Origin: Microlunatus antarcticus
GTDB taxonomy: Bacteria; Actinomycetota; Actinomycetes; Propionibacteriales; Propionibacteriaceae
Direction of reading: 5' to 3'
DNA length: 64,000 nucleotides
NCBI RefSeq assembly: GCF_014193425.1
Contig: NZ_JACHZG010000001.1
Location: 806,001 to 870,000 of the forward strand
In this document: positions 6,673 through 63,350 of the stretch, piece by piece
Layout of the letters: each line of letters begins with the position of its first letter
Position numbering within the stretch: the stretch's first letter is position 1
The notes under the pieces: model-generated
What the model saw: the letters and a program-made list of their open reading frames with translations, nothing else
Told to the model about the DNA's origin: nothing
Databases searched by the model: none
Program-made: the position numbers and the translations under genes

Positions 6673-7845
6673 ATGGTCCCCACCGTCGAGGACGCCGCCG
6701 CCATGTTCCGGCCCTCCGAGGAGCACGAGGCCTTCCGGGCCGCCGTCCGCGAGCTCTGCGACGCCAAGGTCGCGCCGCTCGCCGCCGAGGTCGACGAACG
6801 GGCCGAGTTCGGCTGGGCCTCCTACGAGGCGCTGCGGGCCGGCGACTTCCACGCTCCCCACGTCCCCGAGGCGTACGGCGGGGTCGGGGCCGACGCGCTT
6901 GCCACCGCGATCGTCATCGAGGAGGTCGCCCGGGCCTGCGCGTCGACCTCGCTGGTGCCCGCGGTGAACAAGCTCGGCTCGCTGCCGTGGATGCTGGCCG
7001 GCAGCGAGGAGCTCCGGCAGCGCTACCTGCCGCGGGTGGCCAGCGGCGAGGCGCTCGTCAGCTACTGCCTCTCCGAGTCCGAGGCGGGCAGCGACGTCGC
7101 CGCCATGCGGACCCGCGCGGTGAGCGACGGCGACGAGTGGGTGCTGGACGGGGCCAAGCGCTGGATCAGCAACGCCGGCGTCTCGAGCCTCTACACGGTG
7201 TTCGCGGTGACGGACCCCAGCGCCCCGCGCGGGCACGGCATCAGCGCGTTCGTGGTCGAGCGCGACGACCCCGGCGTCTCCTTCGGCGCGCCGGAGAAGA
7301 AGCTCGGCATCAAGGGCTCACCCACCTGCGAGGTCTACCTCGACCACGTCCGGCTCCCGGCCGACCGGATGGTCGGCGAGCCCGGGGCCGGCTTCGCCCT
7401 GGCCCTGCGCACGCTCGACCACACGCGGGTGACCATCGCGGCGCAGGCTGTCGGCATCGCGCAGGGCGCGCTCGACGCGACCCTGGCGTACGTGGCGGGC
7501 CGTCAGCAGTTCGGCCATCCCGTCGGCGACTTCCAGGGTGTGCAGTTCATGCTCGCCGACATGGGCATGCGGGTCGAGGCCGCACGCCAGCTCACGTACG
7601 CCGCCGCGGGGCGGAGCGAGCGCGACGACCCGGACCTGACCTGGTTCGGGGCGAGCGCCAAGTGCTTCGCCTCCGACGTGGCCATGGCTGTCACGACCGA
7701 CGCCGTGCAGCTGTTCGGCGGCTACGGCTACACCCGCGACTACCCGGTCGAGCGCATGATGCGCGACGCGAAGATCACCCAGATCTACGAGGGCACCAAC
7801 CAGGTGCAGCGCGTCGTCATGGCCCGCCAGCTGCTCAAGCGCTGA
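6673..7845 (+). CDS. Acyl-CoA dehydrogenase (FadE25-like)
   Basis: This 390-residue FAD enzyme introduces the trans-2 double bond into an acyl-CoA. Seen are the FAD/substrate loop YCLSESEAGSDVAAM, the WISNAG turn, and the C-terminal QLFGGYGYTRDYPVERMMRD block followed by IYEGTNQVQR, whose glutamate is the usual catalytic base. The chain-length preference is unknown. A fadE25-type gene next to purE is the mycobacterial arrangement as I recall it. A TACGCT box sits six bases before ATG 6673 without a Shine-Dalgarno sequence, so it may have its own leaderless promoter. ATG 6703 is an alternative start. Confidence 0.93.
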   Translation: MVPTVEDAAAMFRPSEEHEAFRAAVRELCDAKVAPLAAEVDERAEFGWASYEALRAGDFHAPHVPEAYGGVGADALATAIVIEEVARACASTSLVPAVNKLGSLPWMLAGSEELRQRYLPRVASGEALVSYCLSESEAGSDVAAMRTRAVSDGDEWVLDGAKRWISNAGVSSLYTVFAVTDPSAPRGHGISAFVVERDDPGVSFGAPEKKLGIKGSPTCEVYLDHVRLPADRMVGEPGAGFALALRTLDHTRVTIAAQAVGIAQGALDATLAYVAGRQQFGHPVGDFQGVQFMLADMGMRVEAARQLTYAAAGRSERDDPDLTWFGASAKCFASDVAMAVTTDAVQLFGGYGYTRDYPVERMMRDAKITQIYEGTNQVQRVVMARQLLKR

Positions 7846-8083
7846 CGGGCCTGCGATCCCGCGAGAGGTAGGTTTCCGCGCGTCCTGAGGCGGAATCGGC
7901 GCCGCAACCTACCGCGCGGCGGCCCCGGCGTCAGCCCGTCGGCTCTCCCCGCGTACGACCACGGTCTTGATCTCGCGAGCTCCGTGAGAATAGGCGTGCC
8001 CCTAAGAGCAACCTGTCAGTGACCTGTGCTTGTCTTCAGCCCTCGGGCCGGAACCCTCCGGCCCCGGCTCAGGGGGTCCCTAC

Positions 8084-9643
8084 GTGAACGATCGTCCACG
8101 CACCGTGCGACGTACAGCCCGATCACTGCTGATCGCCGCGGCGGTGACCGCCATCGCGGCCGCCGGCGCCGTGCCCGCGGGGGCCGCGACACGGCCCGCG
8201 CTCACGCTCGAGGCCGCCCGGTCCAACGTCACCGTCTACCGCTACGTCGAGGACGACGACGGCGAGGGCGACGGCGGCGTCTACGTCGACGGCGACCTGG
8301 GGATCTACGCCGTGGCCGACCCCAAGCAGGCCTTCGAGGTGCGGGCGACGCGCAAGGACTACAGCAGCCCGCTCGTCGCGACGCTGGTGCGCAAGGGCAA
8401 GGACCGCACGCTCCCGGTGCCCGCCGACCTCACCGGGCTGACGGACTTCTCGCGCACCACCTTCCGCGACAGCAAGGGCAAGGTCGTGACGACCTCGACC
8501 TCGTCGTTCTGCGCGAACTCGTACGAGCCCGTCCGCCGCTCGCCGAAGGCGCCGGCCACCTCGCCCTACCCGCAGAGCTGCGGCGACGCCCGCAACCCGT
8601 ACGCGCTGGGCGCGGTCTGGGGCCTGCAGGCCGGCTACGCGACCAGTCTCTCCGGCAACGAGGACTACTACGACGGCGAGGACGAGCCCGGTGGCCTGTC
8701 CGACCTGAAGCCTGGCTCGTACACGGCGACGGTCAGCGTGACCCCGGCCTACCGCGAGGCGCTGCGCATCCCGGTCGTCAAGGCCCAGGCGACCGTCCAC
8801 GTGACCGTCGTCGACGTCAAGGAGGACGACTGCCGGACGGCCCGCGGGTGCCGGCGAGCGGACCCGAACCGCGCCGCGAGCGCGAAGGTGGAGAAGGCGC
8901 CGAAGAAGCTGACCGGGTCGAAGGTGAAGCCGAGCGGTCCGCTGCCCGACCTCCGCTCGCTGCCGGCGTGGGGGATCGTGTCCGACGGTCGCTACCTCAA
9001 CTTCAGCGCCACCGTCTGGAACGCCGGCCCCGGCCGCCTCGTGGTCGACGGGTTCCGTGACGACAAGGACGCGGACCTGATGAACGCGTACCAGTACTTC
9101 TTCACCGCGTCCGGCAAGCAGAAGGGCTACGCGCCCGTCGGCGGCATGGAGTGGGACGCCCGGGACCACCACCAGCACTGGCACTTCAAGGACTTCGCGC
9201 GCTACAGCCTGGTGAGCGCCGACCTCAAGACGAGCGTGGTCAGCGGCAAGGAGGCCTTCTGCCTCGCCAACACCGACGCGGTCGACTACACGGTCAAGGG
9301 CGCCAGCTGGAGGCCGCAGAACACCGACCTGTCCACCGCGTGCGGCGGGCGGCAGGCGCTCGGGGTCCGCGAGGTGCTGGACGCCGGCTCGGGCGACACC
9401 TACGAGCAGTTCCGGGAGGGTCAGGCCTTCGACCTGACCACGGTGAAGAACGGCACCTACTACATCGAGGTGGCGGCCAACCCGGACTCCGTGCTCTACG
9501 AGCGCAGCACCAAGAACAACGTGTCGCTGCGCAAGGTCGTCATCGGCGGGGTCAAGGACAAGCGCACCGTCGTCGTCGAGAAGGTCGGCGTCATCGACGA
9601 GCCGCCGGTCGAGATCGAGGAGCCCGAGCTCGCGCACCGCTGA
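8084..9643 (+). CDS. Secreted lysyl-oxidase-family copper protein
   Basis: The 519-residue protein starts with a twin-arginine-like but probably Sec signal (RRTARSLLIAAAV...PAGAA, cleaved near residue 35). The C-terminal part matches the lysyl oxidase fold: WNAGPGRLVVDGFR, then a histidine cluster DHHQHWHFKDFARYSL with H362, H363, H365 and H367 as likely copper ligands, and KNGTYYIEVAANPD. Lysyl oxidases deaminate peptidyl lysines; bacterial ones are little studied. The N-terminal 250 residues, with acidic patches (EDDDGEGDGG), are not assigned. GTG 8084 is chosen because AGGGGG lies eight bases upstream and it places the signal peptide at the N-terminus; ATG-less upstream codons to 8030 are open but unlikely. 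Confidence 0.78.
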   Translation: MNDRPRTVRRTARSLLIAAAVTAIAAAGAVPAGAATRPALTLEAARSNVTVYRYVEDDDGEGDGGVYVDGDLGIYAVADPKQAFEVRATRKDYSSPLVATLVRKGKDRTLPVPADLTGLTDFSRTTFRDSKGKVVTTSTSSFCANSYEPVRRSPKAPATSPYPQSCGDARNPYALGAVWGLQAGYATSLSGNEDYYDGEDEPGGLSDLKPGSYTATVSVTPAYREALRIPVVKAQATVHVTVVDVKEDDCRTARGCRRADPNRAASAKVEKAPKKLTGSKVKPSGPLPDLRSLPAWGIVSDGRYLNFSATVWNAGPGRLVVDGFRDDKDADLMNAYQYFFTASGKQKGYAPVGGMEWDARDHHQHWHFKDFARYSLVSADLKTSVVSGKEAFCLANTDAVDYTVKGASWRPQNTDLSTACGGRQALGVREVLDAGSGDTYEQFREGQAFDLTTVKNGTYYIEVAANPDSVLYERSTKNNVSLRKVVIGGVKDKRTVVVEKVGVIDEPPVEIEEPELAHR

Positions 9644-9704
9644 CCGCAGCGCGTAGAGCCCGCAAGGAGTCTGGGGAAAACTCCGTGCTCGGTCGTCCGG
9701 ACCA

Positions 9705-11372
9705 GTGAGAATGCTGTCCGTGACGACCGAGCAGGACCCCAGGCAGCTCTTCGCCCCACCACCCGCCGACGGCGGGCTCTTCGTGGGCGGCTCGATCCTC
9801 GACAGCCGTACGGGGGTGGCGGCGGCCGCCGAGCAGTGGGCCGGCGGGGCCGGCAACCTCGACCTCGACGACCTCTCCGTCGAGCTGCTCCAGGTGGCGC
9901 AGCAGCGACCCGGCGCCCCCGACGAGAACGCCGCGGGGCGGCGGGCGTCGGCGCTGATGCTGGCCCGGCGCTTCGGCGAGGCGCTCGCGGCGCTGCCGCC
10001 GGACCTCGTCCTGCCGCCGCCGGGGGACGACGACCTCCGTCGTGACCACCTCGTGGCCGCCACCTGCCGGGCCGCGCTCGGCGACGACGGGGCCATGGCC
10101 TGGCTCCGCCAGGTCGCGCCGCTGGTCTCGGCCACCGACTGGGCGGGCTACCTCGCGCACTGCCTGCTCCGCGTCGGCGACGCTCGCGGGGACCTCGGGC
10201 TGTCCGAGGCTGCGCTCGGCCAGCTCCAACGCCTGGGCGACAAGGGGCGTCGCGTCCTGCCGCGCATCGTCGCGGACGTGGTCGGGCGTCGGCCCCGGGC
10301 CAAGCCGGAGGGACCGGCCGGCCGGACGAAGATCTGGGGTGCGCCCCGGGACAACCCGACGTCCACCGCCGTGCGGGAGTCCGCCGGGGTGCTGCGGGTG
10401 GCCACCGACCTGCTCCACAGCGCGTCCGAGTCGTTCGTCTCCGACCCGCAGCTGGTGCTGGACACCGCCGAGCTCCTGCGCATGCGTGGCGACCGGGACG
10501 GCGCGGCCCTGCTGCTCCACGTCGTCGACCGGACCAACCCGCACGTCGCGCGGATCCAGGCCGCCCTGGCCGCGTACGTCCCGCCGGGCGCAAAGGGCCG
10601 ACGCCGCCTGCGTCGCGTGCTGCTCCTCGTCCTGGGCGCCATCGCCTTCCTCGTCAGCGGTGTGACCGGCTACCCGACGATCGCGCTCTTCGCGGGGATC
10701 GGCATCGGGCTCGTCGAGATCTTCGCCCGCGAGCCCGGCCTCAACCGTTTCGACACCGGCGTCGCGAGCGAGTACGCGGAGAAGATCGGCATCCGCGCCT
10801 TCTTCCTCGCGCCCCGGTCGGTCGCGGACGAGGTGCCGCTCGGCGGCACCCGCAAGGTGCTCCCGATCGTCCTCGGGGTCCTCGCCCTGGTCCTGGGCAT
10901 CCTCGTCTTCCCGCCCGCCCGGGACGTCGCGGCGGCCCACGGGCAGCCGGCGGGGTGGATCACCTCGCCCGCGCTCGGAACGTTCCTGGTCTGGATCGTC
11001 CTCTTCCCGGCCCTGGTGACCTGGGCGGCCAGCCTGGTCCCGGACCGCCGCCTCGGCTACGTCGTCCCGCGGCTCACGGCCGCGCAGTCGGAATGCCAGT
11101 GCCGCCGGTGGACGTGGGTGGCCGGACCGTTCGCCTTCGCCTACAGCACCGCCCACCTCGTGCCCGTCGAGACGCCGGCCGCGCTGCGACCCGTCCTCGA
11201 CCGGTACGGGCCGCTGCCGCCGTCGGTCGTCAGCTGCACCACCACGGGCGCGGCCTGGCTGGTGCTGACCCTGGGGCCGGAGAACGGGAAGATCCTGCTG
11301 CGCAGCCCGCTGGGGACCCTGCCCGACCCGGTCGAGCCGCCGGAAGGACTGCCGACCGGGCAGTACCTCTAG
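9705..11372 (+). CDS. Unrecognised multi-domain membrane protein
   Basis: The product (up to 555 residues) matches no family I can name. Residues 1-295 are soluble and helical, with alanine/leucine-rich segments that could be TPR-like repeats (LVLDTAELLRMRGDRDGAALL). Then come hydrophobic stretches at about 303-345, 385-407 and 422-447. A short C-terminal domain contains a cysteine cluster SECQCRRW, next to a tryptophan-rich turn. GTG 9705, ATG 9711 and GTG 9720 are all possible starts and none has a clear ribosome site. It is followed by a convergent LCP gene 36 bases away. Codon use is like the neighbours. Confidence 0.6.
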   Translation: MRMLSVTTEQDPRQLFAPPPADGGLFVGGSILDSRTGVAAAAEQWAGGAGNLDLDDLSVELLQVAQQRPGAPDENAAGRRASALMLARRFGEALAALPPDLVLPPPGDDDLRRDHLVAATCRAALGDDGAMAWLRQVAPLVSATDWAGYLAHCLLRVGDARGDLGLSEAALGQLQRLGDKGRRVLPRIVADVVGRRPRAKPEGPAGRTKIWGAPRDNPTSTAVRESAGVLRVATDLLHSASESFVSDPQLVLDTAELLRMRGDRDGAALLLHVVDRTNPHVARIQAALAAYVPPGAKGRRRLRRVLLLVLGAIAFLVSGVTGYPTIALFAGIGIGLVEIFAREPGLNRFDTGVASEYAEKIGIRAFFLAPRSVADEVPLGGTRKVLPIVLGVLALVLGILVFPPARDVAAAHGQPAGWITSPALGTFLVWIVLFPALVTWAASLVPDRRLGYVVPRLTAAQSECQCRRWTWVAGPFAFAYSTAHLVPVETPAALRPVLDRYGPLPPSVVSCTTTGAAWLVLTLGPENGKILLRSPLGTLPDPVEPPEGLPTGQYL

Positions 11373-49556: not shown

Positions 49557-52169
49557 TCAGCAGTGCGTGCTGGTCTTGCCGGACTCGCGGTCGTAGAGGA
49601 TGTAGCCGCCCACGAAGTCGGCGCGCCGACCGCCGTCCACGGCGTACTCGTCCTTGATCGGCAGGCCGAGGCACGACTTCTCGTAGCCCGCCCGCTTGTA
49701 CTCCTGACGGACGAGCCCGTAGACCAAGTGGGCGCCGTGGGCCTTCGACCAGTAGATCGACCGGCCGTCGGTGAAGCCCTCGTACTCGCCGCCCTTGACC
49801 TTCTTCACGTCGGTCGCCGGCAGGCCGTACGCGTTCGGGCCGCCCGCGTCGAGGTACTTCGTCAGGATGGCCCCGCGGCTGACCGAGGTCTTGCCCTTGG
49901 TGATGTGGTAGATCCGGGCGTCCTCGAACACCGACGCCTGGCCGCCCTTGACGTCGACCTCGTCGGCGGTCGGGAAGCCGAGCTTGGCGATGCCGCCGGA
50001 GCCCAGGAACTTCTTGAGGATCAGGCCGTGCACCTCGTGCGCGCCGGTGTCCTCGCTCCAGATGAGGCGACCGCCCTGGTAGGTGCGGCTCCGCCCGCCG
50101 GTGCTGCTGTACTCGGCGCCCTTCGTCTTGCCCAGGAACGACTTCGCCCCGCCCAGCGCGGCGTACTTCTCCTCGATGAACGTCTTGTACGTGGCCGTCA
50201 GGGCCACGTCGCGGTCCGGCATGACGAACGTGTGGTTGGCCTTGCCGCCGTCGCTCCAGCTGACGAAGTGCTGGTAGCCGGACGTCTCGGGGGCGTCGAG
50301 CTGCACCTCCTGGGCCTCGACCTCGCGCGAGGAGAAGGTCGTGACGCCGTCGATGTTGACCGGGACCTTGCTCTTCACGGTGACCGTGCGGAGGTTGGGC
50401 CGGGCGAGGTAGACCTTCGAGACCTTGGCGCCGCGCTCGTCGGTCGCCGAGACGGTGATCTGCATCGACGTGTCCGAGCCGTGGTCGGTGAAGTCCTTGC
50501 TGTACGAGCCCCCGGTGGTGCGGCCGTCGGGGTGCAGGTGGCAGCTGTTCGGGAACGGGCAGTGCAGCAGGATCGTCTCGTAGGTGACGTCGAGCTTGCC
50601 GTCCTCCACGTCGGTCGCGGTCGCCGACAGCTTCACCGGCTCACCGACCTTGAAGAGCTTCGTCGCGGCGGGCGTCGTGACCGACAGGGCGGGGGAGTGG
50701 TTCGCGGGGTAGACGGTCACCTCGGCGGAGTCGCTCGCCCCGATCGAGTCGGTCGCGGTCACGCTGACCTTCTGGGCCGCGGTGCCGGTGTAGGTGTGCT
50801 TCGGCGTCTCGCCGGTCCCCGTGGACCCGTCGCCGAACTTCCAGGCGTAGGTCAGCTTGTCGCCGTCCGGGTCGTACGAGGCGGCGGCGGAGAAGGAGAC
50901 CGTACGGCGGTCGGCGTCGGTGCTGAAGGTGATGTCGGCGGTGGGCTTGCGGTTGCCGCTGCCGTAGACGATCCGCTGGATCTTGCCCGACAGGATGTCG
51001 GCGTAGGTCATGTCGCCGTTCGGGCCCGCGTGGAACGCGACCGGTCCGCCGGCGCCCTTGATGAAGCCGCCGCCCTCGGGCTTGCGGGTCATCTTCCCGT
51101 TCGCGTCGACGGCCATGGTCCAGACCTGGTTGCGGGTGTAGTCGCCCAGGAAGTAGGAGTTCTTGTACTTCGCGGGGTAGGCCGAGCCCGTGTAGAGCGC
51201 GCCGCCGGTGATGGAGGCACCGCGCCCGGAGTGCGTGTAGGTCCAGATCGGGCGGACGTCCTTGTTCTTCTTGTACAGGGCCTTGCAGGTCGCGTACGTG
51301 CCGAAGCTGGTCCGCCGGGCGCCCTCCATGCAGGGCCAGCCGGCGTTCGCGCCGGAGCCGATCATGCTGACCTCCTCCACGTTGCGCCAGCCGACGTCGC
51401 CGACGTTGAGCAGCCCGGAGCGGGCGTCGATGCTGAAGCGGAACGGGTTGCGGAAGCCGTAGGCGTACACCATGCTCCGGATCGACGACGGCTTGTCGGC
51501 GTCGTAGAAGGGGTTCGTGCTCACGCCCCGGCCGTCCGGCGTGACGCGCAGGATCTTGCCGTGCGCGTCGTCGAGGTCCTGGGCGCGCAGCGCCTTCGGG
51601 TCCCCGTTGTTGCCCGCGTTGTCGCCGATGCTCCAGTAGAGGGAGCCGTCCGGCGCCGTGACCACGCTGTCCGGGCCGTGGGTCGTGCCGGTCTCGGTGA
51701 TCTTGGGCGAGGTGTCGTCGCCGTCGACCACGGTCTTCGACTTCGTGAAGGTCGTCGGCGAGCCCGCGGGCAGCGCCTGCCACTCCTCGAGCATGGCGTG
51801 CCCGGTGCCGCCGACCTTGCCCTTGTCGTAGCTGAGGTAGACGTGACCGGTCGAGGCGTAGTCACGGGCGAGCGCGAGGCCCAGCAGACCGTGGTCGTCC
51901 ACCGCCCGTACGCCGGGGACCTTGCCGATCTTGCGCGCCTTGCCGCCGTCGGGCACGAAGGTGATCGTGCCCTCCTTGCCGATGGTCAGCAGGCTGCCGT
52001 CGGGGAGCCAGGAGAAGTTGGTGAGCTCGTAGTCGTCCTGCCCGCTGTCGTAGCCGACCAGGGAGAAGCCGGCCGGGAGCTTCGGTGCGGCCTCCGCCGG
52101 TGCGGCGGACAGGACGGAGACCCCCACGAGAGCGAGGGCGGGAAGGGTGACGAGCAGGCGTCTGAGCAT
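49557..52169 (-). CDS. Secreted PQQ-type glucose/sorbosone dehydrogenase with PKD and LGFP repeats
   Basis: The 870-residue protein has a Sec signal peptide (1-27), then a six-bladed GSDH propeller (about 35-400; WLPDGSLLTIGKEG, VDDHGLLGLALARDY, DDAHGKILRVTPDG). A PKD domain follows (SYDPDGDKLTYAWKFGDGS) and then further beta domains. Four LGFP repeats (LGFPTADEV, YGLPATDV, LGLPIKDEY) end the protein; LGFP modules are thought to bind cell-wall material. Such proteins oxidise sugars with PQQ, but the PQQ requirement is not shown. No PQQ synthesis genes are near. Confidence 0.87.
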   Translation of the reverse strand: MLRRLLVTLPALALVGVSVLSAAPAEAAPKLPAGFSLVGYDSGQDDYELTNFSWLPDGSLLTIGKEGTITFVPDGGKARKIGKVPGVRAVDDHGLLGLALARDYASTGHVYLSYDKGKVGGTGHAMLEEWQALPAGSPTTFTKSKTVVDGDDTSPKITETGTTHGPDSVVTAPDGSLYWSIGDNAGNNGDPKALRAQDLDDAHGKILRVTPDGRGVSTNPFYDADKPSSIRSMVYAYGFRNPFRFSIDARSGLLNVGDVGWRNVEEVSMIGSGANAGWPCMEGARRTSFGTYATCKALYKKNKDVRPIWTYTHSGRGASITGGALYTGSAYPAKYKNSYFLGDYTRNQVWTMAVDANGKMTRKPEGGGFIKGAGGPVAFHAGPNGDMTYADILSGKIQRIVYGSGNRKPTADITFSTDADRRTVSFSAAASYDPDGDKLTYAWKFGDGSTGTGETPKHTYTGTAAQKVSVTATDSIGASDSAEVTVYPANHSPALSVTTPAATKLFKVGEPVKLSATATDVEDGKLDVTYETILLHCPFPNSCHLHPDGRTTGGSYSKDFTDHGSDTSMQITVSATDERGAKVSKVYLARPNLRTVTVKSKVPVNIDGVTTFSSREVEAQEVQLDAPETSGYQHFVSWSDGGKANHTFVMPDRDVALTATYKTFIEEKYAALGGAKSFLGKTKGAEYSSTGGRSRTYQGGRLIWSEDTGAHEVHGLILKKFLGSGGIAKLGFPTADEVDVKGGQASVFEDARIYHITKGKTSVSRGAILTKYLDAGGPNAYGLPATDVKKVKGGEYEGFTDGRSIYWSKAHGAHLVYGLVRQEYKRAGYEKSCLGLPIKDEYAVDGGRRADFVGGYILYDRESGKTSTHC

Positions 52170-52349: not shown

Positions 52350-53210
52350 TCAGTCGATCTCGGGCGGGCTCGGCAGGTCGTAGCCGGACGGGCCCACCGT
52401 CTTCTTCAACGCGGCCTTCCAGGAGCCGTCCGCGACGTACTCCTTGAGGGCGGCGTTCACCTTGGTGACCATCTCGGTGTCGCCCTTCTTGACCCCGATG
52501 CCGTAGCTCTCCTTCGAGAAGCCCCGGCCCACGAGGCGCAGCTTGCCCTTGTACTGGGGCTCGGCCGCGAAGCCGGCGAGGATCACGTCGTCGGTCGTGA
52601 CGGCGTCGACCTCGCTGGCGGCCAGGGCAGCCACGCACTCGGAGTAGCGCGGCTTCTCCAGTAGCGTGACCTTGCCGCGGTGGTCCTTCAGGATGTTGTC
52701 GGCCGAGGTCGTGCCGGCCACCGTGCACAGGTTCCGGCCGTTGAGCGTCCCCGGGCCGGTGATGTCCTCCTCGTTGCGCCGGACCAGGAGGTCCTGCTCG
52801 GCGTCGAAGTACGGCCCGGCGAAGTCGACGACCTGCTTGCGCTCGTCGGTGATGGAGAAGGTCGACACGATCAGGTCGGCACCGCCGGAGGTCAGCAGCT
52901 GCTGACGCGTGTCGCCCTCCGCCTCGACGAACGTGATGTTCTCCGCCGGCACGCCGAGGGCCTTGGCCACGTAGGTCGCGGTCTCGACGTCGAAGCCGGT
53001 GTAGGTGTCACCGTCCTTCATCCCGATCCCGGGCTCGTCGACGGGGATGCCGATGGTGAGCTTCCCGCCGCTCGAGGCGCCGGGCACCAGCGAGGGCGAC
53101 GCGTTCGGCTCGGCGGTCCCCCCGCAGGCGGCGAGGGTCGTGACCAGGAGGGCCGAGCCGACGGTCGCGAGCGCGATCCGTCCGGCCCGGCGGGTCCGCT
53201 GTGCGTTCAC
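52350..53210 (-). CDS. ABC glutamate-type substrate-binding lipoprotein
   Basis: The 286-residue protein has a lipoprotein signal (LVTTLAACGG lipobox) and the family 3 solute-binding fold: LTIGIPVDEPGIG, GFDVETATYVAKALG, LIVSTFSITDERKQVVDFAGPY and a cysteine pair (NLCTVAG, YSECVAAL). These are the usual features of GluB/GlnH. GluB is normally encoded with ATPase and permease genes; none is adjacent, and an amino-acid permease follows instead. The start is GTG 53210. Confidence 0.88.
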   Translation of the reverse strand: MNAQRTRRAGRIALATVGSALLVTTLAACGGTAEPNASPSLVPGASSGGKLTIGIPVDEPGIGMKDGDTYTGFDVETATYVAKALGVPAENITFVEAEGDTRQQLLTSGGADLIVSTFSITDERKQVVDFAGPYFDAEQDLLVRRNEEDITGPGTLNGRNLCTVAGTTSADNILKDHRGKVTLLEKPRYSECVAALAASEVDAVTTDDVILAGFAAEPQYKGKLRLVGRGFSKESYGIGVKKGDTEMVTKVNAALKEYVADGSWKAALKKTVGPSGYDLPSPPEID

Positions 53211-53277: not shown

Positions 53278-54858
53278 TCAGCCGGGGAGCTGGGTGGAGT
53301 CCTGCTTGTCCTTGTCCAGGTCGTCGGGGCTGACGTCGGAGCCGTAGGTCGGGCCGTTGAGCGACCAGACCGCCTTGAGCCGGTCGTTCGTGTTCTCCAC
53401 GACCTTGGGCTTGACCACGCGCCACCCGATGGTGAGGGCGAGGATCAGGAGCGGGATCCCGAACACGACGACGAGGAAGCTCGTCTTGTGCAGGAACTCC
53501 GGCGAGCTCTGCCAGCCCGAGACCGCCAGGCCGATCAGCACGAGGGCCAGGAAGACCAGCCCGACGTAGCTCGTGTAGGGCGATCCCGGGGCCTGGAACG
53601 GGCTGGCCGGGACGACGCCGCGGTCGCTCAGCTGCCGCAGCCGGATCTGGCAGGCGAAGATCGTGCCCCACGTCCAGAGGATCATGATCGACGTCGCCTC
53701 GACCGCGATCTCGAAGGCGTCCGGGGTGAGCGCGTTCAGCACCGAGCCGAGGACGAAGACGATCGAGGTCATGAGGATGCCGGCGTACGGGACGCCCGAC
53801 TTGCTCATCTTCAGCGTGAACTTCGGCGCCTGGTCGCTCATGCCGAGGCTGCGCAGCACGCGGCCGGTGGAGTAGAGGCCCGAGTTGAGGCTCGACATGG
53901 CCGCGACGATGAGGACGGCCTGGATGAGCGCGCCCATCCAGCTCAGGCCGAGCCGCTCGAAGACGGTGACGAAGGGGCTGGTGCCCGCGGTGTAGTCCTG
54001 CGTCGGCAGCATGCAGACGAGCAGCAGGATCGAGCCGATGTAGAAGACGGCGATGCGGAAGATGACCGCGTTGACGGCCTTCGGCACCTCCTTCTTGGCG
54101 TTGGCCATCTCGCCGGCGGCGACGCCGACCATCTCGATCGCGGCGTAGGCGAAGACGACGCCGGACATGACGAGGATCGGGCCGTACCAGTTGTAGTCAC
54201 CGCTGGAGGGCCAGAAGCCGCCCGGGTTGCTCCACAGGTTCTGGAAGCCGGCCTTGTGGCCGCCGATGTCGAACCCGCCGATGACGACGACCAGGCCCAC
54301 GAGCAGGAAGACCACGATCGCGCCGACCTTGAGGATGGCCGCCCAGAACTCGAACTCGCCGAACGCGCGCGCCGACAGCAGGTTGATCGAGAGCACCACC
54401 ACGAGAGCCACGAGGACCGTGATCCAGGTGGGCAGCGTCGGGAACCAGTACTGCATGTAGAGGCCCACCGCGGACAGCTCGGCGATGCCGGTCAGCGCCC
54501 AGTTGAGCCAGTAGACCCAGCCCGTGACGAAGGCCCACTTCTCGCCGAAGAACTCGCGCATGTACGAGACGAAGGCGCCCGACGTGGCGCGGTGCAGCAC
54601 CAGCTCGCCGAGGGCCCGCATCAGGAAGTAGGCGATGACGCCGACGACGGCGTAGCTGATGATCAGGGCGGGGCCTGTGCTGTGCAGCCGCGAGGCCGAG
54701 CCGAGGAACAGCCCGGTGCCGATCGCGCCGCCGATGGCGATCATCTGGACGTGGCGGCTGCTGAGCGTCTGCTGGTAGCCGGCCTGCTCCGCGTCGAGGC
54801 CCGTGTGCTCGGTCTCCGCAGGCTCGGTGGCGTCGGTCGCCTTGGTGTCCTGGCTCAT
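53278..54858 (-). CDS. APC-family amino-acid permease
   Basis: The 526-residue protein has about twelve membrane helices and the AAT-family start ISSRHVQMIAIGGAIGTGLFLGSA-like segment, then GVFAYAAIEMVGVAAGEM. Its specificity is not resolved. It lies 67 bases from the substrate-binding gene on the same strand, and a 14-base direct repeat (TCAGGTGGGTTGCT, at about 53240-53268) sits between them. The divergent transglutaminase gene starts 255 bases away. Confidence 0.9.
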   Translation of the reverse strand: MSQDTKATDATEPAETEHTGLDAEQAGYQQTLSSRHVQMIAIGGAIGTGLFLGSASRLHSTGPALIISYAVVGVIAYFLMRALGELVLHRATSGAFVSYMREFFGEKWAFVTGWVYWLNWALTGIAELSAVGLYMQYWFPTLPTWITVLVALVVVLSINLLSARAFGEFEFWAAILKVGAIVVFLLVGLVVVIGGFDIGGHKAGFQNLWSNPGGFWPSSGDYNWYGPILVMSGVVFAYAAIEMVGVAAGEMANAKKEVPKAVNAVIFRIAVFYIGSILLLVCMLPTQDYTAGTSPFVTVFERLGLSWMGALIQAVLIVAAMSSLNSGLYSTGRVLRSLGMSDQAPKFTLKMSKSGVPYAGILMTSIVFVLGSVLNALTPDAFEIAVEATSIMILWTWGTIFACQIRLRQLSDRGVVPASPFQAPGSPYTSYVGLVFLALVLIGLAVSGWQSSPEFLHKTSFLVVVFGIPLLILALTIGWRVVKPKVVENTNDRLKAVWSLNGPTYGSDVSPDDLDKDKQDSTQLPG

Positions 54859-55113: not shown

Positions 55114-58100
55114 ATGAGCATCAAGGTCGCGCTCGAGCACCGCACCACGTACCGGTTCGGTGCGCCGACCCAGCTGTACCCGCACGCGGTCCGGCTGCGG
55201 CCTGCGCCGCACACCCGGACGCCGGTCGAGGCGTACTCGCTGACGGTCACCCCGGCCGACCACTTCCTCAACTGGCAGCAGGACCCGTTCGGCAACTGGG
55301 TGGGCCGGCTCGTCTTCCCCACGCTGGCGCGCGAGCTGGAGATCACCGTCGGCCTGGTCGTCGACCTCGGGGTGATCAACCCGTTCGACTTCTTCGTCGA
55401 GGAGTACGCCGAGACCTTCCCCTTCACCTACGACGCCGAGCTCGCCGCGGACCTCGGGCCCTACCTGGCCAAGCCGGACGACGCCCCCGGACCGCTGTTC
55501 ACCGGCTGGCTCGACGGGCTCCCGCTCGACCTGTCCACCCCGCAGCGCACCGTCGACTTCCTGGGCGCGCTCAACGGGCTCGTGACCGGCCGGGTCGCCT
55601 ACTCGGTCCGCATGGAGACCGGCGTGCAGACGCCGGACCAGACCCTCGAGCGGGGCATCGGCTCGTGCCGGGACTCGGCCTGGCTGCTGGTCGAGGCGCT
55701 GCGGCACTTCGGGCTCGCCGCCCGGTTCGTCTCCGGCTACCTCGTCCAGCTCTCCTCCGACGACCCGGCGCAGGGCGGGCCGAAGGAGGACTTCACCGAC
55801 CTGCACGCCTGGGCCGAGGTGTACGTGCCGGGCGCCGGCTGGATCGGCCTGGACGCGACGTCGGCGCTGTTCGCGGGCGAGGGCCACATCCCGCTCTCGG
55901 CCACGCCGACCCCGGCGTCGTCCGCCCCGATCACCGGCGCCACCGGGCCCGCGGACGTCGACTTCTCCTTCTCCAACACCGTGCGCCGGATCCACGAGGA
56001 CCCGCGCGTCACCAAGCCGTACGCGCCCGGGCAGGTCGAGGCGCTGCAGCGCTCCGGCGCGGCCGTGGACGAGCGGCTGCGCGCCGCCGGGCTGGCGCTG
56101 ACCATGGGCGGCGAGCCCACCTTCGTGTCGCGCGACGACATGGTGAGCCCGCAGTGGACCGTGGCGGCCGACGGCCCGGAGAAGCGGCTGGCGGCCAACC
56201 GGCTCGCCGGGGCGCTCGCCGAGCGGTACGCCACCGGTGGCCTGGTCCAGCGCAGCCAGGGCAAGTGGTACCCGGGCGAGCCGCTGCCGCGCTGGCAGAT
56301 CGGGTTGATCTGGCGCCCGGACGGCACCCCGGTCTGGAGCGACCCCGCCCGCCTGGTCGACCCGTTCGACGAGACGCAGGCGAGCCCGGACGCGGCCGGG
56401 CAGGCGCGCGCGCTGGCGTCGGCGATCGCGACGGACCTCGGGCTGCCGGCCGACCAGCCGCTGGGCTGCTACGAGGACCCGCTCGCCGTGCTCGCCGTCG
56501 AGGTGCGCCGGCCCGAGGGCCCGCGGCCCGAGCTGGACCCGGAGTCGGCCGACCCGGAGGTCGTCGCCACGCTCGACGCCGCCACCGAGCCCGTCGCCTG
56601 GGCCCTGCCGATCGTGCCGGCCTGGTTCGGCGACGTCTGGGCGAGCCCCGCCTGGCGGACCCGCCGCGGCCGGCTCGTCCTCGTCCCTGGTGACTCCCCG
56701 GCCGGCGCCCGGCTGCCGCTCAGCTCGGTCGCGTGGCGCGACCCGGACTACGTCGGCGAGCCGTCGTACGTCTCCCCGCCCCCGGACCTCTCCGCCTCGG
56801 TGGGCCGCCCGCAGGCGGTCGTCGTCGACCCGGTCGAGGTGCCGACGCGCACCGCGATCGTCGTCCAGGCGCGCGACGGGTACGTGCACGTCTTCCTGCC
56901 ACCGGACGAGCAGCTCGAGCGCTGGCTCGAGATCGTCGGCCTGGTCGAGCGGGCGGCGGCGGCGACCGGGGCCCGCGTCGTGCTCGAGGGCTACGGCCCG
57001 CCGCCGGACCCGCGTGTCACGCAGCTGCTCGTCACCCCCGACCCGGGCGTGATCGAGGTCAACCTGCACCCCACCAGCAGCTGGGAGGACCTCAGCGAGC
57101 TGACCCACACCCTGTACGCGCTCGCCGCCGAGCAGCGCCTCGGCACCGAGACGTTCGCGATCGACGGGCGCCACTCGGGCACCGGCGGCGGCAACCACAT
57201 CACCCTCGGCGGAGCCACGCCGGCGACCTCGCCGATGCTGCTCCGGCCCGACCTGCTGGTCAGCATGCTGACCTGGTGGCAGCGTCACCCGTCGCTGTCG
57301 TACGTCTTCTCCGGTCGGTTCGTCGGCCCGACGAGCCAGGCGCCGCGGTTCGACGAGGGCCGGCCCGAGAGCCTGTACGAGATGGAGATCGCCTTCGCGG
57401 AGATCGAGACGTACACCCCGCCCGCCGAGGACGACCCCGAGCACCCCGAGGCGCGGCGGCGCGGCCTGCCCTGGATGACCGACCGGGCGCTGCGGCACCT
57501 GCTGACCGACCTGACCGGCAACACGCACCGGGCCGAGTTCTGCATCGACAAGCTCTACAGCCCCGACTCCGCCCGCGGGCGGCTCGGCCTGCTGGAGCTG
57601 CGCGGCTTCGAGATGCCGCCGCACCCCGACATGGCCCTGGTGCAGGCGCTGCTCGTGCGCGCCCTCGTGGCCCGCTTCGCCGAGGAGCCGTTCTCCGCGC
57701 CGCTGGTGCGGTGGGGCACCGCCCTTCACGAGCGGTTCCTGCTGCCGCACTTCGCCATGGCCGACCTCGGGGAGGTGGTCGCCGACCTGCGCGCCCACGG
57801 CTTCGAGATCGAGGAGTCCTGGTTCGCGCCGTACGCCGAGTTCCGCTTCCCGCGGCTGGGCGTGGCCCGCGCCGGCTCGGTCGACCTCGAGCTGCGCCAG
57901 GCGATCGAGCCCTGGAACGTGCTCGGCGAGGAGGCGACCTCCGGCGGGACCGCGCGCTTCGTCGACTCCTCGACCGAGCGGATCCAGGTCCTGGTCTCGG
58001 GCTTCGCCCCGGAGCTGCACCTGGTGACCTGCAACGGTGTCGCTGTGCCCATGACGCCGACGGGCACGCCGGGGGAGTACGTGGCCGGCGTCCGCTTCCG

Positions 58101-58431
58101 CGCCTGGAAGCCGTGGTCCTCGCTGCACCCGACGCTGGAGATCGACGCCCCGCTGCGCGTCGAGGTCGTCGACCGGGCCAACCGCGTCTCGTTGGGCGGG
58201 GCGACCTACCACGTCGTGCACCCGGGCGGTCGTTCGTACGACACCCCGCCGGTCAACGCGCACGAGGCGGAGGCCCGCCGGGCCCGGCGCTTCGAGGCGA
58301 TGGGGCACACGGCCGGCGAGATCGACGTCACCGCGCTCGAGGCCGAGCTGCTTCGCCGCACGAACGACGGCACCGACTACCCGGTGACCCTCGACCTGCG
58401 CCGTCGCGTGCCCACGTCCTGGGGTCGCTGA
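55114..58431 (+). CDS. Transglutaminase-like / DUF2126 putative amidoligase fusion
   Basis: The 1105-residue protein starts with the bacterial transglutaminase N-terminal region (VALEHRTTYRFGAPTQLYPH), then a transglutaminase core with Cys185 (GIGSCRDSAW), His231 (DLHAWAEVYV) and Asp247 (GLDAT), the expected triad. From about residue 325 (LALTMGGEPTFVSRDDM) to the end is DUF2126, a putative amidoligase domain with TGGGNHITLGG and HRAEFCIDKLYSP. Known relatives are predicted to form or trim peptide bonds; substrate unknown. The ATP-grasp gene follows after 12 bases. AGGAGAG before ATG 55114. Confidence 0.9.
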   Translation: MSIKVALEHRTTYRFGAPTQLYPHAVRLRPAPHTRTPVEAYSLTVTPADHFLNWQQDPFGNWVGRLVFPTLARELEITVGLVVDLGVINPFDFFVEEYAETFPFTYDAELAADLGPYLAKPDDAPGPLFTGWLDGLPLDLSTPQRTVDFLGALNGLVTGRVAYSVRMETGVQTPDQTLERGIGSCRDSAWLLVEALRHFGLAARFVSGYLVQLSSDDPAQGGPKEDFTDLHAWAEVYVPGAGWIGLDATSALFAGEGHIPLSATPTPASSAPITGATGPADVDFSFSNTVRRIHEDPRVTKPYAPGQVEALQRSGAAVDERLRAAGLALTMGGEPTFVSRDDMVSPQWTVAADGPEKRLAANRLAGALAERYATGGLVQRSQGKWYPGEPLPRWQIGLIWRPDGTPVWSDPARLVDPFDETQASPDAAGQARALASAIATDLGLPADQPLGCYEDPLAVLAVEVRRPEGPRPELDPESADPEVVATLDAATEPVAWALPIVPAWFGDVWASPAWRTRRGRLVLVPGDSPAGARLPLSSVAWRDPDYVGEPSYVSPPPDLSASVGRPQAVVVDPVEVPTRTAIVVQARDGYVHVFLPPDEQLERWLEIVGLVERAAAATGARVVLEGYGPPPDPRVTQLLVTPDPGVIEVNLHPTSSWEDLSELTHTLYALAAEQRLGTETFAIDGRHSGTGGGNHITLGGATPATSPMLLRPDLLVSMLTWWQRHPSLSYVFSGRFVGPTSQAPRFDEGRPESLYEMEIAFAEIETYTPPAEDDPEHPEARRRGLPWMTDRALRHLLTDLTGNTHRAEFCIDKLYSPDSARGRLGLLELRGFEMPPHPDMALVQALLVRALVARFAEEPFSAPLVRWGTALHERFLLPHFAMADLGEVVADLRAHGFEIEESWFAPYAEFRFPRLGVARAGSVDLELRQAIEPWNVLGEEATSGGTARFVDSSTERIQVLVSGFAPELHLVTCNGVAVPMTPTGTPGEYVAGVRFRAWKPWSSLHPTLEIDAPLRVEVVDRANRVSLGGATYHVVHPGGRSYDTPPVNAHEAEARRARRFEAMGHTAGEIDVTALEAELLRRTNDGTDYPVTLDLRRRVPTSWGR

Positions 58432-58443
58432 GGTGGGCACCCC

Positions 58444-61146
58444 ATGACGCTCCTCGGTCGCTACCTCGAGGCCGCGCGGCAGCCCGACGCCGAGCAGGCG
58501 GGGGCCGGCTTCGACGAGCTCGTCGGCCCCGACGGCGCCCCGCGCCCGGCCTGGGCCGACCTCGTCGACGGGCTCGCCGAGGCGTCGGACGACCTCGCCT
58601 CGGCCCGCCGGGAGGTCGCGCGGCTGCTCGAGGACGACAACGTCACCTACACCCCGAGCCCCGCGTCGACGCGCTCCATCGCCGACGCGCCGACCGACGC
58701 CCCGCCCGCCCCGGCGGCGCTCGAGCAGCCCCGGCCCTGGCGGCTCGACCCGCTGCCGCTCGTCCTGCACGAGCGCGAGTGGGCGACGCTCGAGGCCGGC
58801 GTCGTCCAGCGCGCCGAGCTGCTCGACGCGGTCCTGGCCGACCTGTACGGCGCGCGCCGGCTGCTGGCCCGCGGCCAGCTGCCGCCCGCGGCCGTGCTCG
58901 ACCACGAGGAGTATCTGCGGCCCGTCGTGGGGGCCGACAGCGTGGTCGACCAGCGGCTCTTCATGACCGGCACCGACCTCGGGCGCGACGCGAGCGGGGC
59001 CTGGAAGGTCATCGCCGACCGGACGCAGGCCCCGTCCGGCGCCGGCTTCGCCATGCAGAACCGGCGTGTCGTCTCCCGGGTGCTGCCCGACCTCTACCAT
59101 GCCGCCCGGCTGCACCGCCTGACGCCGTTCTTCCAGGCGATGCGGGTGGCGCTCGTCGAGTCGGCCCCGAGCACGGTCGAGGACCCGCGCGTCGTCGTGC
59201 TGAGCCCGGGCACGCACTCCGAGACCGCGTTCGACCAGGCCTTCGTCGCCTCCCTGCTCGGCTACCCGCTGCTCGAGGGCAGCGACCTGCTGGTGCGCGA
59301 GGGCCGCGTCTGGATGCGGGTGCTCGGCCGGCTCGAGCAGGTCGACGTGATCCTGCGCCGGGTCGACTCGACCTGGATGGACGCGCTCGAGCTCCGGGGC
59401 GGCTCCCGCCTCGGCGTCACCGGGCTGCTGGAGTGCGTGCGGCAGGGGACCGTGAGCGTGGTCAACACGATCGGCTCCGGCGTCCTGGAGAACCCGGCGC
59501 TGCTGCCCTTCCTGCCCGAGCTGTGCGAGCGGCTGCTGGGCGAGCCGCTGCGGCTCCCGTCGGTCGACACCTGGTGGTGCGGCGACGACGAGGGGCGGGC
59601 GTACGTCCTCGCCCACCTCGACGACCTCGTCGTGCGCCCGGTCAGCCGCGGGCACGCCCGCAGCGTGGTCGGCGGCGCCCTGAGCCGGGAGCAGCGCGAG
59701 CGGCTGGTGGCCCGGATCGAGGCGACCCCGCACCACTTCGTGGGCCAGGAGGTGCTGCCGCTCTCGTCTGCGCCGACCGTCCCCGACGACCCGGCCGCCG
59801 GCTCGGCCGGGCTGGTCCGGCGCAGCGTCGTGCTGCGCACGTTCGCGGTGCGCAGCGGCAGCTCCTACACCGCCATGCTCGGCGGTCTGGCCCGGACGAA
59901 CGACGAGGACGCGGCCGATCGCGGACCCCTGGTGACGTCGCCCGACGGCGGCGTGGCCAAGGACGTCTGGGTCGTGCGCAGCGAGGCGGGCCCGACCTCA
60001 CGGGTCGCCACCACCCGCAGCCGGGCGGAGGAGGGCAGCGCCGTGCTGCCCGGGGCGGCGACGGCGGCGATGGTGCCGCGCGTGCTGAGCGACCTCTACT
60101 GGTTCGGTCGCTACGCGGAGCGGGCGGAGGACCTGCTGCGCCTGGTCCTGGCCAGCCGGACCGTCAGCATCGAGACCGACGTCGACGTGCGGCCCGGGCA
60201 CGCCCTCGACGTGCTGCTGCAGGCGCTGACCCACGTCAGCACCACCTACCCGGGCTTCCTCGCGCTGCCCGACGACCCCGTCGAGCGGCGCGCGGCCGTC
60301 ATGCCGGAGCTGCGGTCGCTCATGCTCGACCGTCGCCGCCCCGGGTCGGTGGCGCAGTCGCTCCAGGCGCTCACCGTGAACGCCCAGGGCGTGCGCGACC
60401 AGCTGTCGGAGGACGTCTGGATGGTCCTCGCCGACGCGGAGCGGGCGCTGCAGGCGCTCGGCCGGCAGCCGCAGGACCAGGGCCTCCATCTCAACGAGGC
60501 CGGGGAACGCGTCCTGTCCGGGCTGCTCGCCCTCTCCGGCATCGCCGGGGAGAACATGGTCCGCGACCCCGGCTGGCTGCTGCTCGACACCGGTCGCGGC
60601 CTGGAACGCGCCCTGCAGGTGCTCAGCCTGCTGCGCACGACGCTCGTCGACTCGTACGGCCCGGACGTCGACCGGGCGGTGCTCGAGGCCGCGCTGACGT
60701 CGAGCGAGTCGATCGTCACGTTCCGCCGGCGCTACCGGGGACGTTCCGGGGTGCCGGCCGTGGTCGAGCTGCTGGTCGTCGATGCGTCCAACCCGCGCTC
60801 GGTGGCCTACCAGCTGCAGCGCATGCAGGCCGACCTGCGGGCCATCCCCAACACCTCGCCGACGGCCCGGCCGCTCCGGCTGCTGGACCGGCTGGTCGAG
60901 ACCGTGCGGCTGGCCGACCCGGTCGCCCTCGGCACCGTCCTGCCGCCGGCGGGCGACGCCCTGCCGGGCACGCCGGGGCGGCGCGACGCGCTGGAGGAGT
61001 TCTGCGCGGACCTGCACGGGTCCCTGCGCGAGCTGTCCACGGCCGTGCGCGACCACTACCACGAGCCGCCGCCCACCCAGCAGTCCCTGCAGCGTCAGCA
61101 GGCGCTGGCCGTGTGGGCGCGCGAGCAGGAGGGGAGCACCCCGTGA
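58444..61146 (+). CDS. Circularly permuted ATP-grasp and alpha-E fusion
   Basis: The 900-residue protein joins two families that are separate genes in many bacteria. Residues about 90-520 are the circularly permuted ATP-grasp (DUF404/DUF407): IADRTQAPSGAGFAMQNR, SETAFDQAFVASLLGYPL, LRRVDSTWMDALEL and the ending VDTWWCGD. Residues about 533-890 are the alpha-E domain: MVPRVLSDLYWFGRYAERAE and ENMVRDPGWLLLD. The ATP-grasp would activate a carboxylate for peptide bonding; the alpha-E role is unknown. Stop overlaps the next GTG (GTGA). Confidence 0.9.
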   Translation: MTLLGRYLEAARQPDAEQAGAGFDELVGPDGAPRPAWADLVDGLAEASDDLASARREVARLLEDDNVTYTPSPASTRSIADAPTDAPPAPAALEQPRPWRLDPLPLVLHEREWATLEAGVVQRAELLDAVLADLYGARRLLARGQLPPAAVLDHEEYLRPVVGADSVVDQRLFMTGTDLGRDASGAWKVIADRTQAPSGAGFAMQNRRVVSRVLPDLYHAARLHRLTPFFQAMRVALVESAPSTVEDPRVVVLSPGTHSETAFDQAFVASLLGYPLLEGSDLLVREGRVWMRVLGRLEQVDVILRRVDSTWMDALELRGGSRLGVTGLLECVRQGTVSVVNTIGSGVLENPALLPFLPELCERLLGEPLRLPSVDTWWCGDDEGRAYVLAHLDDLVVRPVSRGHARSVVGGALSREQRERLVARIEATPHHFVGQEVLPLSSAPTVPDDPAAGSAGLVRRSVVLRTFAVRSGSSYTAMLGGLARTNDEDAADRGPLVTSPDGGVAKDVWVVRSEAGPTSRVATTRSRAEEGSAVLPGAATAAMVPRVLSDLYWFGRYAERAEDLLRLVLASRTVSIETDVDVRPGHALDVLLQALTHVSTTYPGFLALPDDPVERRAAVMPELRSLMLDRRRPGSVAQSLQALTVNAQGVRDQLSEDVWMVLADAERALQALGRQPQDQGLHLNEAGERVLSGLLALSGIAGENMVRDPGWLLLDTGRGLERALQVLSLLRTTLVDSYGPDVDRAVLEAALTSSESIVTFRRRYRGRSGVPAVVELLVVDASNPRSVAYQLQRMQADLRAIPNTSPTARPLRLLDRLVETVRLADPVALGTVLPPAGDALPGTPGRRDALEEFCADLHGSLRELSTAVRDHYHEPPPTQQSLQRQQALAVWAREQEGSTP

Positions 61147-62018
61147 CGCGCTACCGGATCGAGCACGTCACGCGCTACGACTACGACGCCGACGTGACGG
61201 GCAGCTTCGGGCAGTTCCACCTCACGCCGCGCGCGCTGCCCTGGCAGGACGTGCAGTCGTGCGAGCTGAGCATCGAGCCCACCCCGGGCACGCTGCTCTC
61301 CCACACCGACCTCTACGGCAACACCAAGTCGTCGTTCCACGTCACCAATCCGCACACCGAGCTCGTGGTGCGCGCGGTCAGCGTCGTCGACGTGGTCCCG
61401 CCGGTGCTGCCGCCCGAGGCCCTCGCCGTCCCCTGGGAGGATGCGCGACCCACCGTGCGGACCGACGAGCCGGACGCGTGGGAGGCGACGGACTTCACGT
61501 TCCCGTCGCCGTACGTCGACGTCCCGGCCGAGGTCGAGGCGTACGCGCGGGTGTCCTTCACCCCCGGCCGCCCGCTGGGGGAGGCGGCGACCGAGCTCAT
61601 GCACCGCGTGCACGACGACTTCGCCTACCGGCCACGTTCCACGATCATCGGCGAGAAGGTCGTGGACCTGCTGGTCAAGCGGCACGGCGTCTGCCAGGAC
61701 TTCTCGCACGTGATGGTGGCCGGGCTCCGCTCGCTCGGCCTCGCCGGGCGCTACGTCAGCGGCTACCTCGCCACCCGCCCGCCGCCCGGCCGGCCGCGCC
61801 TCGTCGGCGCGGACGCCAGCCACGCCTGGGTCGGGGTCTGGGTGCCCGGTGCCGGCTGGCTGCATCTCGACCCGACCAACGACCGGCTGACCGACGCCTC
61901 CCACGCGACGGTGGCCTGGGGGCGCGACTACGGCGACGTGCCGCCCGTGCGCGGCGTGATCTTCACCGAGTCGAAGAACTCGACGATGAAGGTCTCCGTC
62001 GACATGGCACCGGCCTGA
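61143..62018 (+). CDS. Transglutaminase-like protein
   Basis: The 291-residue protein begins with the same beta-domain as the 55114 gene (RYRIEHVTRYDYDADVT) and has a transglutaminase core with Cys184 (HGVCQDFSHV), His227 (ASHAWVGVWV) and Asp243 (LHLDPTND). It may act as a peptidase or amide-bond enzyme for the other two operon members. It overlaps the ATP-grasp stop by four bases and is the operon's last gene; the convergent sixA follows after 18 bases. Confidence 0.9.
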   Translation: MTRYRIEHVTRYDYDADVTGSFGQFHLTPRALPWQDVQSCELSIEPTPGTLLSHTDLYGNTKSSFHVTNPHTELVVRAVSVVDVVPPVLPPEALAVPWEDARPTVRTDEPDAWEATDFTFPSPYVDVPAEVEAYARVSFTPGRPLGEAATELMHRVHDDFAYRPRSTIIGEKVVDLLVKRHGVCQDFSHVMVAGLRSLGLAGRYVSGYLATRPPPGRPRLVGADASHAWVGVWVPGAGWLHLDPTNDRLTDASHATVAWGRDYGDVPPVRGVIFTESKNSTMKVSVDMAPA

Positions 62019-62993: not shown

Positions 62994-63350
62994 GCGGTCT
63001 CACTCGCGCGTCGTTCTGCGCGCCGGCTGTGCGGCGTCTTCAGACCGGTGCGGCATCATCGTGCCGCGTCGTCGACCCGCCTTGCGCGTCTTCCCGCTCC
63101 GGTCTGAAGACGCGTACGTGCTGCGTCTTGTGGGCTGCGTCTTCCGGTTCTGGTCTGAAGACGCGTACGTGCTGCGTCTTGTGGGCCGCGTCTTCCCACT
63201 CTGGTCTGAAGACGCGTACGTGCTGCGTCTTGTGGGCCGCGTCTTCCGGCTCTGGTCTGAAGACGCGTACGTGCTGCGTCCTGCGGGCTGCGTCTCCCGG
63301 CTCTGGTCCGAAGACGCGACAGCCCGCGTACGCAGCGGGGGCGAGCGGCC
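62994..63350. other. Gene-free gap holding the 51-bp tandem array
   Basis: No gene is supported between the remnant's stop and the DUF3039 gene. The first 90 bases contain an inverted copy of part of the repeat unit (GCGTCTTCAGACCGG, at about 63043). The rest is the tandem array listed separately. Confidence 0.6.
63086..63317. repeat. 51-bp tandem repeat, four full units plus a partial fifth
   Basis: Units begin at 63086, 63137, 63188, 63239 and 63290. Each has an 8-bp stem GCGTCTTC...GAAGACGC around a 12-nt loop, then a constant 23-base segment (GTACGTGCTGCGTCTTGTGGGC-like). The fifth unit keeps only the hairpin. The unit is a multiple of three, which keeps all frames open, so the repeat peptides are shadows. 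Confidence 0.85.

Follow-up and report, generated by a model that had tools for sequence, protein, structure and literature searches.

A conserved three-gene amidoligase-type operon of Microlunatus antarcticus with a probable pseudo-ATP-grasp ligase

A stretch of 64,000 nucleotides from the Microlunatus antarcticus genome (the window; the genome, G000, is 4.37 Mb) contains three nearly touching genes with two predicted ligase domains, and this raises the question of whether both of them are active. Gene 1 (55114..58431, + strand, 1105 amino acids) encodes a transglutaminase-like domain and DUF2126, a putative amidoligase. Gene 2 (58444..61146, + strand, 900 amino acids) encodes a circularly permuted ATP-grasp domain (residues 105-485) and an Alpha-E domain (543-872), and gene 3 (61143..62018, + strand, 291 amino acids, GTG start) a stand-alone transglutaminase-like protein. 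A gap of 12 bp separates genes 1 and 2, and the GTG start of gene 3 overlaps the stop of gene 2 by 4 bp. These coordinates and the Pfam matches bear out the arrangement and domain content given in a preliminary description of the locus, which also placed an activating ligase in each half of the operon. That last claim does not hold for the ATP-grasp half, which lacks the residues expected for Mg-ATP binding, whereas the DUF2126 half is conserved. We consider it rather probable, from the sequences compared here, that the operon is an add-on to a second, intact ATP-grasp set, with gene 2 as a pseudo-ATP-grasp partner and DUF2126 as the operon's ligase.

Gene 2 is assigned to its family by matches to CP_ATPgrasp_2 (453 bits) and to a solved relative, 3n6x (3.2e-61). 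The genome encodes three permuted ATP-grasps, namely gene 2 (set 1), an unfused protein on contig C18 (set 2) and a GCS2-fused protein (set 3, locus L111). Alignment of gene 2 with the intact C18 paralogue (34% identity) places A191, R193, P351 and R398 at the positions of E, N, K and K. The Mg motif E-x-N is replaced by A191-D-R193, as codons 190-200 (59011..59043, + strand) read IADRTQAPSGA in gene 2 and LEDNFRVPSGV in the intact paralogue, and the lysine of the DDK motif has become P351. The glycine loop is gone, with RGHARS there; codons 395-408 (59626..59667, + strand) read LVVRPVSRGHARSV where the paralogue has a lysine and the glycine loop.

The same residues are altered throughout set 1. 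Among 111 rows (seeded rows, 12 of them actinobacterial with the window included and 46 from other phyla; 17 rows from a class search; and 36 rows from a search of 200 Pseudomonadota genomes for which gene 2 was not a seed; locus L040 = L242 is counted twice), the E was kept in 0, the N in 0 and the DDK lysine in 1. In all 111 rows the E had changed to A, S, G, N or D and the N to R, W, H or Q. Other parts of the site were retained: the arginine of DLRPF in 111/111 rows, the arginine and aspartate of RRxD in 104/111 and 105/111, and the K of KDxW in 73/75. The D of the D, E, N series that resembles glutathionylspermidine synthetase (Gss) was D in 101/111 rows and E in 10. As read from these alignments, one side of the set 1 pocket is kept and the predicted Mg-ATP side is lost. 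E and N were both kept in 37/37 set 2 rows and 13/13 set 3 rows, and the DDK and VVK lysines in all rows of these sets with letters there (one set 2 row was partial). Of 38 further set 2 rows, which repeat at least loci L135 and L138 of the 37, all 38 had EDN and DDK and 32 fitted a strict glycine-loop pattern; over both groups of set 2 rows, E and N were present in 75/75. Three second ATP-grasp copies (L230, L240 and L241) also keep E and N, that is, they are not set 1.

A tree built without the motif columns separated 50 set 1 rows (all 29 actinobacterial rows and 21 of the 46 others) from the rest by a branch with 100/100 support, a split present in each of the 200 bootstrap trees checked. 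With all columns included, the set 1 clade (53 rows) had a support of 100. The trees are unrooted and contain the long branches L061, L049 and L111. By these alignments, the residue-altered copies of gene 2 are one clade spread over phyla.

The gene order around gene 2 is conserved as well. Set 1 loci were collected from a scan of named genomes with gene 2 (61 loci, of which 58 encoded a fused set 1 protein) and from the class search (17), so that the gene-order sample comprised 75 loci and the window (76), with fusion to Alpha-E as part of the selection. Loci without a fused set 1 protein (L063, L069, L070), partial set 2 loci (L022, L036), pieces or repeats of other loci (L001, L002, L004-L009, L090) and G074 (two partial pieces) were dropped, and L065, with a partial ATP-grasp, was used for gene order and left out of the residue count. 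A transglutaminase-DUF2126 gene lies directly upstream in 59 of the 70 loci that have more than 3.6 kb of upstream sequence (55 found by script and four, L115, L117, L118 and L122, by hand in overlapping stop-to-stop frames). Of the 75 loci whose downstream sequence is long enough, 73 have a transglutaminase gene that follows directly on the same strand, and it is nearby in the other two (L127, L130). The loci belong to Actinomycetota and Pseudomonadota, apart from one Planctomycetota locus (L049) that has no DUF2126; among named genomes, Microlunatus flavus has the closest relative of gene 2 (84%), and the 36 set 1 type matches from the Pseudomonadota sample are open frames of at least 803 amino acids. 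The three genes are therefore a real conserved unit, with the same order and fusions across Actinomycetota and Pseudomonadota; a check for conserved neighbours had been called for in the preliminary description. Its suggestion that two fusions reduce a usual four or more genes to three has to be given up, because the set normally carries these fusions: DUF2126 is fused to the transglutaminase in 59 of 62 cases and the remaining three are cut by contig ends.

The other domains of the operon look intact. Both transglutaminases match Bact_transglu_N and Transglut_core (stretches 6-84 and 150-248 in gene 1), and their Cys-His-Asp triads stand where they had been placed, at C185/H231/D247 in gene 1 and C184/H227/D243 in gene 3. 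The triad is kept in 61/61 rows of the gene 1 type and 71/71 of the gene 3 type; only two set 2 transglutaminase rows were available, one with a gap at the His. The Alpha-E domain of gene 2 scores 230 bits, and its WFGRYAER stretch (ER motif) is invariant in 34 rows. DUF2126, found in one gene only in this genome, would be expected to have a glutamine-synthetase-like fold and matches gene 1 with 1093 bits. It contains the motifs GGEPTF (from 332), GKWYPGE (from 383), PGVIEVN (from 644), TGGGNH (from 690) and LLELRGF (from 826). Thirteen of 14 tested positions (E334, E389, E648, N650, G691, G693, H695, R806, E808, K813, E828, R830 and E833) are identical in 59/59 rows and the fourteenth, K384, is kept in 57/59; DUF2126 can therefore be the active ligase of the operon. 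A profile comparison of DUF2126 with GCS2 was not significant, with the ELR motifs aligned in one alternative. Loss of ATP-binding residues in both ligase domains had been named beforehand as the result that would undo the operon prediction; such a loss was found in the ATP-grasp domain but not in DUF2126.

If gene 2 is a pseudo-ligase, another ATP-grasp may supply the activity, and set 2 is almost always present where set 1 is. In M. antarcticus, set 2 lies on contig C18, where the intact unfused ATP-grasp, a separate Alpha-E and a transglutaminase are encoded close to a class II tRNA-synthetase gene. Among 118 genomes of the class, 43 have set 2 and 18 (own genome included) have set 1, and all 18 are within the 43; DUF2126 occurs in 16 and 16/16 have both sets. 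Among the genomes of named loci (37 loci, L069 dropped because it has no fused protein), set 2 was found in 35 of the 36 with set 1. In the 200 Pseudomonadota genomes, 111 have set 2 by score and frame length, and 64 have at least two matches. All 36 set 1 type matches among the matches listed, which cover second copies partly, are in set 2 genomes, or 36/37 with G440 added; one genome, G141, belongs to both this and the named-locus sample. DUF2126 is found only alongside set 2 (63 of the 200 Pseudomonadota genomes, 63/63 with set 2, and the 16 of the class) and is present in 33 of the 36 listed set 1 genomes. The distance between sets 1 and 2 is at most 20 kb in 7/35 named-locus genomes and 9/36 Pseudomonadota. 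In L243, a transglutaminase-DUF2126 gene directly precedes an ATP-grasp gene with EDN and DDK intact, and then Alpha-E; this resembles the set 1 order in an unfused, intact version. Set 3 was read in 13/118 class genomes; its L111 member (7642-10221; G000:C1:2479006-2480118) combines GCS2 with a permuted ATP-grasp with intact residues and is a long-branch member. In the 3.4 Mb genome that contains L245, which encodes a set 1 protein, neither set 2 nor DUF2126 was found.

We therefore picture set 1 as a probable helper of set 2 in a single amide-forming pathway. Since the E, N and K expected for Mg-ATP are lost, gene 2 would no longer activate a carboxylate with ATP. As a pseudo-ligase it might hold the substrate or product, or dock Alpha-E. 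DUF2126 of gene 1 would form one amide bond and set 2 another, with the transglutaminase domains cleaving or transferring amide bonds in this shared product.

Comparable systems have been described. DUF2126 is reportedly part of the prediction that Iyer et al. made in 2009. The amidoligase/Alpha-E/transglutaminase systems of Iyer et al. (2009), as cited in PMC5666114, PMC6376114 and PMC3597751, share domains and operon logic with the M. antarcticus operon. Conserved gene order and domain content support its place among these predicted sets, as proposed earlier; unlike the generic set, it has an ATP-grasp that is joined to Alpha-E and lacks the residues expected for Mg-ATP. The Anbu operon of P. 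aeruginosa, Y. bercovieri and P. putida likewise has consecutive genes for ATP-grasp, Alpha-E and transglutaminase (PMC6376114), but consists of four separate genes, the Anbu peptidase among them. We take its ATP-grasp set as the set 2 type, likened by description rather than by sequence. No Anbu-like frame was present among the seven C18 frames scanned, and no Anbu peptidase gene among the scanned neighbours of set 1 or set 2 (the rest of the window and genome was not searched). The mycobacterial genes Rv2566, Rv2567 and Rv2569c presumably have the same three architectures, likened by annotation, with the second transglutaminase apart as in L127 and L130; a literature search on the mycobacterial gene names gave no match. 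The GCS2-permuted ATP-grasp fusion (L111) also pairs a glutamate-cysteine-ligase-type domain with a permuted ATP-grasp, but in one protein, and E, N, K, K and the loop glycines are kept in 13/13 rows. RloABC and RimK-RimB of Pseudomonas combine an ATP-grasp with a peptidase, and Rlo adds a transglutaminase-like protein; they differ in that the ATP-grasp is RimK-like and the transglutaminase-like protein of Rlo sits in the membrane and is inactive (PMC12239564).

Some of these clusters have been studied experimentally. We take PP_2685-2688 of P. putida to be the ATP-grasp, Alpha-E, transglutaminase and Anbu genes, beyond the one that is named as a transglutaminase. Under nitrogen limitation in three strains, table values were 11 to 37 for PP_2686-2688 and 1.1 to 4.8 for PP_2685 (PMC7801951). 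In an ntrC mutant of B. cenocepacia, the values for I35_5080-83 (annotated as DUF404/407, DUF403 and two transglutaminase proteins) ranged from -6.0 to -9.4 (PMC5491218). Both data sets come from proteobacteria. The Y. bercovieri Anbu operon encodes an ATP-grasp that splits phosphate off ATP, in an assay that did not distinguish amide formation from hydrolysis (PMC6376114). Because related Pseudomonas and Burkholderia clusters respond to nitrogen shortage, our guess by analogy is that the product is a peptide or a tag with a role in storing or recycling nitrogen. A wider version, which we put forward tentatively and hold to be somewhat doubtful, is that set 1 would be a widespread and probably ancient pseudo-ATP-grasp system. 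In a pathway for peptide tagging under nitrogen shortage or for nitrogen storage, its Alpha-E-fused dead ligase would regulate an intact ATP-grasp-Alpha-E set or carry substrate for it, and DUF2126 would be the sole ligase of the set 1 operon.

Several observations weigh against gene 2 as a pseudo-ligase partner of set 2. Firstly, the roles of E, N and K in Mg-ATP binding are those that we assume from E. coli Gss, in which R316, D318, E330, N332, K498, K533 and R598 agree in letter with the metal and ATP residues we presume there, and in which D, E and N stand in the same order and at the same spacing as in set 2. A profile alignment with 30 Gss relatives gave the expected register, but with a probability of 0.4% and an E value of 0.15 it was not significant, and an alignment of the ATP-grasp family profiles to E. 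coli Gss alone was of no use. The VVK lysine is still K in 45/111 set 1 rows. Some pseudokinases are active with swapped metal residues, and loss of canonical residues is no proof of inactivity. Gene 2 could thus still be an ATP-dependent ligase that binds its nucleotide otherwise, through new residues (ADRTQAPSG, GVLENP), and the operon would then have two active ligases. The strong conservation of the new signature, with R at the N position in 99/111 rows, R193 and E349 invariant in 34 rows and K or R at the VVK position in 89/111, speaks for this. However, gene 2 has lost the two expected metal ligands along with the DDK lysine and the glycine loop, and no replacement nucleotide motif was recognised in it, which makes the alternative unlikely in our view.

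Secondly, the link between the sets has its exceptions. The Fisher p value for their association in the class (8e-10) ignores relatedness, and set 1 was found without set 2 in G139, a metagenome-assembled genome, and with neither set 2 nor DUF2126 in G440. No DUF2126 was found in the available stretch of 11/70 set 1 loci, and gene 2 therefore does not need it everywhere. Set 1 may also have spread horizontally, and a pull-down with Anbu in Y. bercovieri gave no complex with other operon proteins (PMC6376114). That sets 1 and 2 are within 20 kb on one contig in 0/18 class genomes, M. antarcticus included, where set 2 sits on another contig, would fit an operon that works without set 2 as a pathway of its own, e.g. 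towards a secondary metabolite. Near-complete co-occurrence in three samples and the adjacency noted above argue against such independence, and the four flanking genes tested are conserved in close relatives only, so there is no sign of a larger pathway; we regard it as improbable. Lastly, gene 2 is hardly a decaying, functionless remnant despite its lost catalytic residues, as its frame is open, the same substitutions recur in relatives of several phyla that form one clade, and the gene order and Alpha-E motif are conserved.

The surroundings of the operon add little to this picture. Just upstream and pointing away lie genes for an amino-acid permease (53278-54858, - strand) and a solute-binding protein (52350-53210, - strand), which contradict the literal claim that the window holds no transporter. 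They are excluded from the unit because, among the available stretches of 23 actinobacterial loci, only Microlunatus flavus (L010) has both. The flanking genes were rejected as a clue to the substrate, being common to close relatives only. A promoter and terminator scan gave 0 sites, and shuffles gave 0.1 and 0.4. Further upstream, 49557-52169 (- strand) encodes an 870 amino acid protein with a Glucose/sorbosone dehydrogenase domain, PKD and LGFP repeats. Near the window's end lies a 51-bp tandem array (63085-63318, 4.6 copies, 91% match, score 391) to which no gene is assigned. Elsewhere in the genome, two glutamine-synthetase matches of equal score and length (G000:C7:30770-31765 and G000:C17:1285-2280) possibly represent one stretch assembled twice.

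A literature search for inactive ATP-grasp proteins gave no match; it did not cover Iyer et al. 2009, so we do not claim that the loss is unpublished. In the available parts of the literature the product of such operons is described as unknown. By telling the likely active ligase domain from the likely inactive one, and by having set 1 lean on set 2, the reading of gene 2 as a pseudo-ATP-grasp partner is sharper than the vague earlier prediction. If it is true, there would be a conserved pseudoenzyme among the ATP-grasp ligases.

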